This document shows positions 18,227 through 49,014 of a stretch of 64,000 nucleotides of DNA, in pieces (the first letter of the stretch is position 1; each line of letters starts with the position of its first letter). The stretch comes from Ammoniphilus oxalaticus (lineage in GTDB: Bacteria; Bacillota; Bacilli; Aneurinibacillales; RAOX-1): positions 62,001-126,000 of the forward strand of contig NZ_MCHY01000006.1 in assembly GCF_003609605.1 (NCBI RefSeq). The letters run 5' to 3'. The notes below the pieces were generated by a model. That model was not told the DNA's origin. It saw only the letters and a list, made by a program, of their open reading frames with translations, and did not search any database. A program made the position numbers and the translations under genes.

Positions 18227-18458
18227 TTTGCTTGCCTTAACTTTTGAGGAAGCGATCAAACGACTAGAAGATGTCGTTGATACGCTTGAATCAGGGGAAG
18301 TTCCATTAGAAAAAGCGATTGATTTATTTCAAGACGGTATGCTTCTCTCCCAAGTTTGCAATCAGAAATTAGAGATAGTGGAACAGAAGATCGAAACCCT
18401 TTTAGAAGGAAATGACGGTCTAGAAGTGAAGTCTATCGAGCTTGAGGAGGAACGTTAG
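18213..18458 (+). CDS. xseB: exodeoxyribonuclease VII small subunit
   Basis: An 81-residue helical protein with the family core TFEEAIKRLEDVVDTLESG. It is the small subunit that wraps the XseA stalk. ATG 18213 lies inside the xseA end and the stop overlaps the ispA start (TAGTG), showing tight coupling. Confidence 0.95.
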   Translation: MEKSDLLALTFEEAIKRLEDVVDTLESGEVPLEKAIDLFQDGMLLSQVCNQKLEIVEQKIETLLEGNDGLEVKSIELEEER

Positions 18459-19354
18459 TGAAGGAATCATTTCAGCTGCAAGACTATTTAACAGAGAAAA
18501 AACAACGCCTTGAGCGGGCATTACCTGACTACTTACCGACGTCGGGCGTCCCCCCATTATTGAAAGAGTCGATGGAGTACTCGCTGCATGCGGGTGGAAA
18601 ACGGATCCGTCCGATCCTCATTTTTGCGACGTTAGAGTCGTTTGGCAAAGACCCGATGATCGGCATGCCTGTTGCTTGCGCCGTTGAAATGATTCATACG
18701 TACTCATTGATACACGATGATTTACCAGCGATGGACGATGACGATTTTCGTCGGGGAAAACCGACTAATCATAAGCAATACGGGGAAGCCACTGCGTTGT
18801 TGGCGGGGGATGGACTGTTGACTGAAGCGTTTCGAACTGTTTGCGGTTTGGATCAGCTTGGCGTTGAGTCGAAAACGATTTTAAAAGTTGTCCGTGAACT
18901 ATCGCGTTACGCGGGCCCGCAGGGGATGGTCGGGGGACAAATGGCCGATTTATTAGGCGAAGGCAAACAACTGCAACTCGCAGAGCTTCAATATATTCAT
19001 CAACATAAAACAGCTGATTTACTTATCTTTTGCATTCGAGCAGGGGCTCATTTGAGCGGAGCGAATAAAGAGCAACTGGAATTGCTTACGACATTTGGCC
19101 GCAACATCGGACTTGCTTTTCAAATTCAAGACGATCTGTTGGATATTTTCGGCGAAGAATCGAAGTTGGGTAAACCGGTTGGCAGCGACGAAGCGAGCGA
19201 CAAATCTACCTATCCGGCTTTGCTCGGTTTAGAGGAAACCAACCGACAATTAGATCAGCTGATCGCCGAAGCAAAATCGGCCTTAAATCAAACCGGGATT
19301 AACGTTGAAATCTTACATGCGTTAGCCGATTTTATCGTCCAGCGGGATCGTTAA
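18458..19354 (+). CDS. ispA: farnesyl/geranyl diphosphate synthase (polyprenyl synthetase)
   Basis: A 298-residue short-chain trans-prenyltransferase. The first Asp-rich motif is DDLPAMDDDD (about 88-97) and the second is DDLLD (about 225-229). It condenses isopentenyl diphosphate units to farnesyl diphosphate, feeding undecaprenol and quinone synthesis. The start is GTG 18458 behind GAGGAGGAACG, overlapping the xseB stop. It stands immediately upstream of the OLE RNA, which separates it from dxs of the same isoprenoid pathway. Confidence 0.95.
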   Translation: MKESFQLQDYLTEKKQRLERALPDYLPTSGVPPLLKESMEYSLHAGGKRIRPILIFATLESFGKDPMIGMPVACAVEMIHTYSLIHDDLPAMDDDDFRRGKPTNHKQYGEATALLAGDGLLTEAFRTVCGLDQLGVESKTILKVVRELSRYAGPQGMVGGQMADLLGEGKQLQLAELQYIHQHKTADLLIFCIRAGAHLSGANKEQLELLTTFGRNIGLAFQIQDDLLDIFGEESKLGKPVGSDEASDKSTYPALLGLEETNRQLDQLIAEAKSALNQTGINVEILHALADFIVQRDR

Positions 19355-19419: not shown

Positions 19420-19448
19420 TTGAGCGTTGTTTTAAGATGTGATATACT
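19420..19448 (+). promoter_or_regulatory. sigma-A promoter of the OLE RNA
   Basis: TTGAGC (19420-19425) and TATACT (19443-19448) are separated by exactly 17 bases. A start about seven bases later falls at the 5' edge of the OLE closing stem (19460). This indicates that the RNA can be made from its own promoter besides read-through from ispA. Confidence 0.7.
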
Positions 19449-19454
19449 TATCTT

Positions 19455-20070
19455 TCGCTGAGGAGTGGCGCAGTATTCTAGTCGGTCTACTTTCTCTGAA
19501 GGCGGGGCTAAAAATCCGCTAAAGGGCACATCGATGAAGTCCCTGGTGCAGGCTTATGACGCCCAGTCAGGGGTCTGTGCTGGGGGTTAAGGTTTCGGGG
19601 CGATCCACAATGGCATGTGGGCGTTGACCCTGATTCCGTGGAGGCCCAAGTGCGTAGTAAAGCGTTGCGCGCGTTTATGCTATGGCTTGGGGTATGAACC
19701 TGGATGTCGGCTCATGCGCGAGTCGACGCACAGCGTAGCCTGCCTTGCGTGGTGTCGGGAGGGAGTATGGGATTCAGTGCGCTCGGGTCTTGGCCAGACC
19801 CAGCGTTCCAGTGCCGTATGAAACCTGCACTGCAAAAGAGGCTAGGGGACTGTTCAAGGCTGTTGAGGAAATCTCCTAGACTGTTCGCTTTGCGCGTAGT
19901 TTTGCAGGGATTAAAGTGTGGACTAAGTGGTAATCCAGTCCAATACATGGTGACAGTATTGATGTCTGAATAAGGGGAAACCGCCTGAACGGCGACGTTT
20001 AGGTTCGGGCATGGGAAAACCTACTGGACCTAAGCCACAGTGTTTACTTGCAAAATGGCCACTCCTCGTT
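19455..20070 (+). ncRNA. ole: OLE RNA (ornate, large, extremophilic)
   Basis: The region between ispA and dxs holds no convincing coding sequence but has the hallmarks of OLE RNA. GAGGAGTGGC (19460-19469) is perfectly complementary to GCCACTCCTC (20058-20067), closing a 608-nt element, the size known for OLE. The interior is GC-rich and structured; for example CCCTG near 19541 can pair with CAGGG near 19567. The location beside ispA/dxs in the nusB-folD-xseAB cluster is the published OLE context. OLE RNAs form a membrane ribonucleoprotein with OapA and affect tolerance of short-chain alcohols, cold and magnesium in Halalkalibacterium halodurans. A sigma-A promoter precedes it and a terminator follows it. 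The usual oapA gene is not next to it. Confidence 0.9.
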
Positions 20071-20105
20071 TACAGCATGATGATAAGCAAATCAGCATGA
20101 AATAG

Positions 20106-20146
20106 GAAGCGGATCTGAATTTCAGATCTGCTTCTTTGTTGTTTTT
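20106..20146 (+). terminator. terminator after the OLE RNA
   Basis: GAAGCGGATCTGAA (20106-20119) pairs with TTCAGATCTGCTTC (20121-20134) with one G-T wobble, followed by TTTGTTGTTTTT. It lies 39 bases past the OLE closing stem. Confidence 0.88.
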
Positions 20147-20158
20147 GGGGGATGTTGC

Positions 20159-20389
20159 CGTCGATGAACGCCCGCGTTTGGTCAAAATTGATCTGTGCGG
20201 GTCTTCATGCCGTCGATGAATGCCGGTATTTGGTCGAAATTGATCTGCACGGGTCTTCATACCGTCGATGAACGCCCGCGTTTGGTCGAAATTGATCTGT
20301 GCGGGTCCTCATGCCGTCGATGAACGCCCGCATTTGGTCGAGATTGATCTGTGCGGGTCTTCATGCCGTCGATGAACGCCCGTTTTCGA
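20159..20389 (+). repeat. 52-bp direct tandem repeat, about 4.4 copies
   Basis: A unit starting CGTCGATGAACGCCCG begins at 20159, 20211, 20263, 20315 and 20367, an exact 52-base period, with a few substitutions per copy and a partial fifth copy. There are no unique spacers, so it is not a CRISPR array. The period is not a multiple of three and open frames across it are not gene-like. Confidence 0.93.
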
Positions 20390-20600
20390 TTAGACTCCCG
20401 CTCTTAGGTCCTGATGGCGTTCTTCACGACGCACCCTCCCCTAAATTCCCCGATCCCGCGTTCTGATCGTGTCGCTCATGACGCGCATTCCGCTTAAATG
20501 TCCGATCTCGTGTCCTGATGGCGTACTTCACAACGAGCTCTCCCTTAAATTCTTCGATCTCGGGTCTTGATCGCCAGCATTCGCGCTTGCGCCATCTCCA
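20390..20600 (+). repeat. second, diverged 52-bp repeat block
   Basis: Three to four degenerate units share CCTGATGGCG or TCTGATCGTG, then CTCATGACG or TTCACGACG, then a CTTAAAT-type core and a GATC close. GATCCCGCGT, GATCTCGTGT and GATCTCGGGT begin successive units 52 bases apart. The CCGCTTAAAT-like core also occurs in the repeats near 48.7 and 56.7 kb. Nothing else is seen between here and the dxs promoter. Confidence 0.6.
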
Positions 20601-20805: not shown

Positions 20806-22692
20806 TTGTTATTACAAAAAATCAACTCTCCTGATCAATTAAAAACATTATCTTTGCAAGAGATGGAACAGCTTGCTCGCGAGATCCGACAATTCTTAGT
20901 TGAAAAGCTGTCTAGGACTGGGGGGCATTTAGCGTCTAACCTTGGGGTTGTTGAGCTGACGATTGCTCTGCACTATGTTTTCAATAGTCCGCAAGATAAA
21001 TTGATTTGGGATGTCGGACATCAGTCCTATGTGCATAAGATTTTAACGGGTCGCATCGATTTGTTTGATACATTAAGAAAGTATAAAGGGTTATCTGGAT
21101 TCCCTAAGCGCAGCGAAAGTGTCCACGATGTTTGGGAAACTGGGCATAGCAGCACATCTTTATCAGCGGCGATGGGGATGGCGATAGCCCGTGACTTGAA
21201 AAAGGAAGACAGTCAAGTTGTCGCGATTATTGGTGATGGCGCTTTGACCGGGGGAATGGCCTTGGAAGCGTTAAACCATATAGGTCATGAACAAAAGAAT
21301 TTAATTGCTATTTTAAATGATAACGAAATGTCGATTGCGCCGAACGTCGGCGCGTTGCATAATCACTTGGGCAAATTACGCACAGATCAACACTATAAAA
21401 AGGTGAAAGAAGATCTGGATCATTTATTACGTAAAATTCCAGCTGTGGGCGGGAAGTTATTAAAAACAGCAGAACGAATTAAAGATAGTCTAAAATACTT
21501 AGTCGTGTCAGGTATCCTATTTGAGGAACTTGGTTTTACTTATCTCGGACCGATCGATGGGCATAACCTGCCAGAATTATTAGAGTGTCTCAACCAGGCG
21601 ACCCATACGGAAGGACCTGTGCTCGTACATGTCGTTACCAAAAAGGGGAAAGGATATGCGCCAGCCGAAGCGGACTCCTACACGTGGCATGGGGTTAGTC
21701 CTTACAAAATCGAATCCGGAGAAATGATGAAAAAGGCGGGACCGCCTTCGTATGCTAAAGTATTTGGCGACACGATGATTAAGATGGCGGAACAAGAACC
21801 GTCGTTGGTCGCAATCACACCGGCAATGCCTGGCGGATCGGGCTTAACCTCATTTTCAGAACAATACCCAGAGCGCTTTTATGATGTCGGAATCGCGGAA
21901 CAACACGCGGTTACACTTGCCGCTGGACTTGCGACGCAAGGGATGAAACCTGTATGTTCTATCTACTCTACATTCCTGCAACGCGGTTATGATCAAGTTG
22001 TTCATGACGTTACACGACAAAACTTAAATGTTATTTTTGCGATTGACCGATCCGGTTTTGTTGGTGAAGACGGAGAAACTCATCATGGTTTATATGATAT
22101 TGGTTTTCTGAGAAGTCAACCTAACATTGTAATCATGATGCCAAAAGACGAAAATGATTTTCAACATATGTTATATACGAGTATGAAATATTCAGACGGT
22201 CCAATCGCTGTTAGATATCCTCGCGGCGGTGGGCTAGGTATCCCGATGGACGAACAGCTTCAAGAAATTCCGATTGGAAAATCGGTCATTGTGGAAGAAG
22301 GCAGCCAAGTTGCGATCCTGGCGTTAGGTAATATGGTGGAATTGGCTTTAGAAGCGGCCGATCACGTGAAGCAAGAAGGGATTCAGCCGATGGTGATTGA
22401 TGCCCGTTTTGTAAAACCATTGGACCACGATTTATTGATTCGTTTGGCGAAAGAGCGCTATCACCTCATTACGGTTGAGGAAGCGACTGTGGCGGGCGGA
22501 TTTGGATCTGCGGTGCTTGAGTTTTATGCGGAACACGGTTACCACGATATGACTGTGGAAATGATCGGCGTGCCGGATGTGTTGGTCGAACATGGCAGTT
22601 CCACAGAACAACGCAGGGAAATTGGGTTAACGGCGGAAGCGATTGCGAAAAAGACAATCCAATTATGGCCCAGAAAAAGGCAGCGGGCGTAA
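20806..22692 (+). CDS. dxs: 1-deoxy-D-xylulose-5-phosphate synthase
   Basis: A 628-residue thiamine diphosphate enzyme that condenses pyruvate and glyceraldehyde 3-phosphate, the first step of the MEP isoprenoid pathway. The ThDP motif is [15 protein letters not shown] (about 142-156). [16 protein letters not shown] and the transketolase-like middle ([18 protein letters not shown]) are intact. The start is TTG 20806 behind GTGAGGAG. The next gene begins at the base after its stop codon. Confidence 0.97.
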
Positions 22693-48703: not shown

Positions 48704-49014
48704 GATCGAGTTTGGAATGCGCTGTGAGGGCACGAAATAGCAGGAGAAACTCCGTCTAAATGTTCCGCTTCTTCAGTTTTCCGATGATCGAGCTCGGGAC
48801 GTGTTGTGAGGGCACGAAATAGCAGGAGAAACTCCGTCTAAATGTTCCGCATCTCCAGTTTTTCGATGATCGAGCTCGGGACGTGTTGTGAGGGCACGGA
48901 ATAGCAGGAGAAACTCCGCCTAAATGTTCCGCTTCTTCAGTTCTTCGATGATCGAGCTTGGAACATGGTGTGAGGAAACGGAATACCAGGAGAAACTCCG
49001 CCTAAAAGTTTGCC
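48704..49014 (+). repeat. 82-bp tandem repeat, about 3.8 copies
   Basis: The segment from GATCGAG through GAGGGCACGRAATAGCAGG and AACTCCGYCTAAATG recurs with an exact 82-base period; the CACG landmark is at 48731, 48813 and 48895, and AACG at 48977. Each unit contains the short palindrome GGAGAAACTCC followed by a TCTAAAT core. There are no open frames across the copies. The same core appears near 20.5 and 56.7 kb. Confidence 0.93.

Follow-up and report, generated by a model that had tools for sequence, protein, structure and literature searches.

Background

OLE is a large bacterial RNA that associates with the membrane. The systems closest to the locus described here are the OLE RNAs of the Halalkalibacterium halodurans and Clostridium acetobutylicum types, and 2,822 Bacillota genomes with OLE were listed by Fernando & Breaker in 2024 (PMC11332333). 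The ole and oapA genes nearly always stand in tandem, and a seemingly absent partner may be one that was computationally missed (PMC11332333). Another account words the arrangement as "almost always" tandem (PMC9723947), so exceptions were already known. OapA (OLE-associated protein A), the obligatory protein partner of the RNA, is a small CNNM-like membrane protein with a DxxxD motif. Four membrane helices are predicted for it (PMC12265935), and its membrane domain is distantly related to that of MpfA and CorB, which are CNNM-CBS-CorC Mg2+ exporters (PMC11332333).

Several elements of the RNA have been tied to particular roles. In the cryo-EM structure from C. acetobutylicum, loops form an L4 A-A bridge and an L9.3 kissing loop, and GGCC/GAUC/AGCU covariation in L9.3 has been described (PMC12286853). 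OapC has been proposed to bind a kink turn located where P5 begins (PMC9723947, PMC12286853).

The OLE RNA of Ammoniphilus oxalaticus

The window analyzed is a 64-kb stretch (64,000 nucleotides) of the A. oxalaticus genome. A sequence-only reading had called a non-coding element at 19455-20070, between ispA and dxs, an OLE RNA. The element is present in the sequence, and a check with the Rfam model RF01071 (cmscan) gave a full-length match, model positions 1-616 of 616, at 19449-20078 on the plus strand, a span with which the earlier one agrees. The score, 501.3 bits (E 4e-144), is about ten times the gathering threshold of 50. No other Rfam family reached gathering level in the 64-kb window and no second OLE was found in the genome, leaving the window copy as the sole one. 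The features of the locus, in window coordinates, are as follows.

18458..19354, plus strand: ispA, the upstream neighbor, an open reading frame named from its context, the sequence and the earlier reading rather than from a family search
19420..19448, plus strand: sigma-A-type promoter TTGAGC-17-TATACT (9/12), with the position of the -10 box kept in relatives
19449..20078, plus strand: OLE RNA (cmscan, RF01071), the RNA proper probably running from about 19455 to 20067
19460..19469, plus strand: 5′ arm of the closing stem, pairing with 20058-20067
19501..19520, plus strand: hairpin with a conserved CUAAAAAU A-rich loop, taken as P4/L4 from its order and the A-A bridge
19524..19540, plus strand: strongly conserved GGGCACAUCGAUGAAGU linker at the foot of the following stem, assigned to the J4a/5 strand in the kink turn of OapC
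19540..19586, plus strand: stem taken as P5, with five of the six columns that mark the six-genome unlinked clade
19790..19797, plus strand: UUGGCCAG loop containing a palindromic GGCC, taken as the L9.3 kissing loop
20058..20067, plus strand: 3′ arm of the closing stem, pairing with 19460-19469
20104..20136, plus strand: intrinsic-terminator-like hairpin (15 pairs) followed by a T-run, just downstream of OLE
20806..22692, plus strand: dxs, directly downstream of OLE with no oapA between them

The perfect end-to-end pairing reported earlier holds at 10 of 10 positions. Across 84 OLE RNAs the closing stem is paired in 89.5% of cells, with nine of the ten pairs changed on both sides and one invariant, and it is more than a chance pairing. 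Because the Rfam structure line shows both ends of the RNA unpaired, this stem was added to it for counting. The whole structure of 169 pairs is then paired in 89.6% of cells versus 75.8% in shuffles, with 2311 double-change cells versus 739, and its covariation score, computed on a set that includes the window sequence, is 0.433 versus 0.180 for shuffles and at most 0.125 for slid structures. The window sequence itself forms standard pairs at 145 of the 159 base pairs of the Rfam consensus. The hairpin at 19501-19520 (helix 2) is paired in 100% of cells. The names P4, P5 and so on are applied to the window from helix order together with the characteristic loops, and should be read as probable assignments.

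Like the H. halodurans and C. acetobutylicum types, this RNA has the full-length fold, the invariant blocks and its own promoter, and it lies in an isoprenoid-gene neighborhood with ispA upstream and dxs downstream, in a genome that also carries genes for OapA, OapB and OapC. It differs from them in having no oapA downstream, in clade-specific changes within the stem taken as P5, and in a repeat array between OLE and dxs. The short or missing P7, P8 and P9 that characterize OLE variant 1 and variant 2 (TANB77, RF39) are absent, as all model helices were aligned with no large gap. The RNA is an ordinary full-length member of a known family. The idea that OLE is confined to a limited set of Bacillota should be toned down: 85 of the 399 sampled genomes of the class carry it, so it is not rare in the group. 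With OLE this common, in our sample and in the published list, one further sequence adds little to a covariation model whose family already has thousands of known members, contrary to what had been suggested for this one.

The 17-bp-spaced sigma-A promoter proposed for the RNA is indeed present. Taken alone the match is weak, since the shuffled region yields 1.7 such sites, but in 66 of 84 relatives the top -10-like box falls no more than about 4 bases from where OLE starts, and the scores are well above those of shuffles. A promoter in a conserved position and a terminator-like hairpin together make transcription of OLE from its own promoter likely, as far as DNA signals can indicate. The RNA would then be made from this promoter and ended at its own terminator. 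It is closed by the 10-bp end-to-end stem and is expected to dimerize through the A-rich L4 loop and the GGCC L9.3 loop.

Between the terminator and dxs, at 20156-20571, lie two adjoining tandem arrays of a 52-bp unit (4.4 and 3.2 copies). The arrays occur nowhere else in the genome, the family's other OLE loci lack them, and the OLE-dxs gap is 730 bp here versus about 190 bp at those loci. An 82-bp tandem repeat of 3.5 copies occurs elsewhere in the window, at 48723-49010.

Unlinking of oapA from OLE

The gene that normally follows OLE is oapA, and its absence from this locus was overlooked by the sequence-only reading. In 399 genomes of the class (the window genome is G000), an OapA profile built from 18 sequences found OapA in 86, and full-length OLE was found in 85. 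The two sets are identical apart from G262, where OapA occurs without OLE; only about 110 bp of contig precede oapA there, and OLE has probably been cut off. OLE without OapA was not seen in any of the 399 genomes. One OLE fragment under the cut-off (G116, 22.9 bits) was left out of these counts.

In 78 genomes the OapA match begins 22-245 bp (median 59) after OLE. The remaining seven OLE genomes (G000, G001, G002, G003, G011, G033 and G025) have no oapA after OLE and encode it elsewhere. They include, besides the window genome, Ammoniphilus resinae and Ammoniphilus sp. YIM 78166, which belong to the same family as the window genome, as well as Aneurinibacillus tyrosinisolvens and a Bacillaceae metagenome-assembled genome. 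In the window genome the OapA profile matched an uninterrupted reading frame at G000:C6:14228-14752 (E 2.9e-42), on the same contig about 67 kb upstream of OLE and outside the window. Loss of OapA had been suspected when a Pfam search for CNNM domains returned only proteins of MpfA size, and this profile match refuted it. The presence of an unlinked partner in each of the seven genomes supports the published view that apparently absent partners may have been missed (PMC11332333).

A diverged OapA with a relocated basic tail

All seven unlinked OapAs fall in one clade (support 100/100) whose branch is 2.1 changes per site long, and the protein of the window genome is 28-38% identical to tandem OapAs. 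No description of this branch was found in the open-access literature, to which the search was confined. Such divergence, together with the lack of any Pfam match, could mean that the protein is a CNNM-like relative rather than a functional OapA and that the true partner has been missed. This explanation is very unlikely. Profiles of the unlinked and tandem proteins match with 100% probability over 172 columns (E 8e-40, hhalign), and the DxxxD motif kept in all OapAs is present, as DVVGD in all seven unlinked proteins. Six unlinked genomes were searched up to E 10, and in every one the diverged protein is the sole OapA-profile match. Matches at E 1e-12 or better are confined to OLE genomes apart from the one contig-end case. 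An AlphaFold model of the unlinked OapA built from four sequences had a pLDDT of 48.5, too poor for a fold search.

The diverged protein is thus best regarded as an OapA: like other OapAs it is a small CNNM-like membrane protein with DxxxD, found only with OLE in this sample. It differs in being unlinked, in its low identity and in the position of its basic tail. Tandem OapAs have a long, basic C-terminal tail (+6 to +13) and a short N-terminal one (0 to +6). The unlinked proteins instead combine a basic N-terminal tail (+6 to +9) with a weakly basic C-terminal one (+3 to +5). As the seven proteins are related, this swap was counted as one evolutionary event. The basic tail is a plausible RNA contact. 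With four predicted membrane helices, both ends of OapA should face the same side of the membrane, and a swapped tail could therefore keep the RNA contact and the geometry of the RNP.

Neighboring CBS-pair gene and metal transporters

Unlike MpfA and CorB, OapA is without CBS and CorC domains, and MpfA is encoded separately here, in two copies. Six of the seven unlinked genomes have a stand-alone CBS-pair gene (PF00571, 1.9e-25) no more than about 3 kb from oapA, and in four it is the immediate neighbor. Since MpfA consists of CNNM, a CBS pair and CorC, and a proposal exists that OLE takes the place of the CBS/CorC part (PMC12265935), it was considered whether the relocated oapA and the nearby CBS-pair protein make up a split MpfA-like transporter served by OLE. 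The same CBS gene, however, occupies the same neighborhood in OLE-less relatives that have no oapA, so its adjacency to oapA is probably incidental. Moreover, other genes intervene between the two in two unlinked genomes, and the neighborhood in G025 is wholly different. A split transporter was rejected on these grounds and is very unlikely.

The two MpfA-type CNNM genes of this OLE-bearing genome are at G000:C7:58345-61004, and six CNNM-domain genes were found in the relative G002. In G025 (L071 4201-4872 and 4968-5645) the unlinked oapA faces a gene of the TerC family (PF03741), to which the metal transporter MeeY presumably also belongs. Overexpression of MeeY is reported to rescue OLE-defective H. 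halodurans (PMC11332333).

OapB, OapC and a probable complete RNP

The other two protein partners are also encoded in the genome. OapB (L117 4221-4529, minus strand) matches OLE-associated protein B, which has been crystallized (7k9b), at 9.5e-30, and OapC, which shares a contig with nusG at a distance of about 11 kb, matches YbxF at 1.8e-23. Orthologues of these two proteins are widespread, though not invariable, companions of OLE. With orthologues of OapB and OapC present, a complete OLE RNP in the window genome is likely, judging by its gene content.

OLE and MpfA are reported to be anticorrelated, OLE carriers usually having fewer MpfA proteins (PMC11332333). The two MpfA-type CNNM proteins of this genome, above the usual number for a carrier, and the strong divergence of its OapA could accordingly be taken to mean that the RNA is a relic: oapA would be gone from its side, with a distant CNNM-like protein in its place, and MpfA exporters would have taken over from an RNP that no longer works. 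The state of the RNA speaks against this, as it is intact and full length with a perfect closing stem and a promoter in place, and OLE has been retained in all four species of the family. The diverged OapA has also retained DxxxD and is accompanied by OLE wherever it occurs. A relic is very unlikely.

A functional full-length OLE RNP, to which OapA is supplied in trans by a diverged subfamily with a moved basic tail, is by contrast highly probable. OLE would be assembled with OapA, OapB and OapC at the membrane, following the H. halodurans pattern, with OapA arriving from another locus. Its basic tail is now N-terminal rather than C-terminal, and the RNP could keep its geometry. The RNP is expected to help the cell adapt to stress (Mg2+, cold, alcohol), a role shown in H. 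halodurans.

The RNA of the unlinked clade

The RNA side is far less changed than OapA, and by sequence the seven OLE RNAs appear near-ordinary. Six of these RNAs group in a clade with 97/92 support and a short branch, while the seventh, from G025, is unplaced. It was considered whether OapA had been replaced by horizontal transfer independently of the RNA; a single clade of all seven RNAs is neither supported nor rejected by the OLE tree (AU p 0.44).

Five of the six core columns diagnostic of the clade fall in the stem at 19540-19586, which makes up 42 of the 579 core columns, and no other clade of comparable size showed a like concentration in one stem. At pairs 95:139 and 104:130 of this stem the letters have changed while standard pairing is kept in all six RNAs. 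An explanation of these changes through an OapA site was set aside, and no claim of co-evolution is made, because the order of the loops makes the changed stem P5 and not P4a. The reported contacts of OapA are P2 and P4a, and the stem taken as P5 would instead adjoin the OapC kink turn.

Implications for OLE biology

Taken alone, the RNA adds one new member to a known family, and the RNP is a variant by virtue of its displaced, diverged OapA. It is tentatively suggested, with somewhat less than even confidence, that the Ammoniphilus family, Aneurinibacillus tyrosinisolvens and two others have rebuilt the OLE RNP around an OapA that was displaced, evolved fast and carries its RNA-contacting basic tail at the other terminus. 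Among structured bacterial RNAs that still lack an assigned biochemical function, OLE is one of the largest, and its association with OapA offers the best lead to that function. If the suggestion is correct, the rebuilt RNP and the RNA changes concentrated in one stem would amount to a natural experiment on recognition between OLE and OapA. The seven genomes also offer a diverged RNA-protein pair in which tandem-type and unlinked-type OapAs may be swapped.
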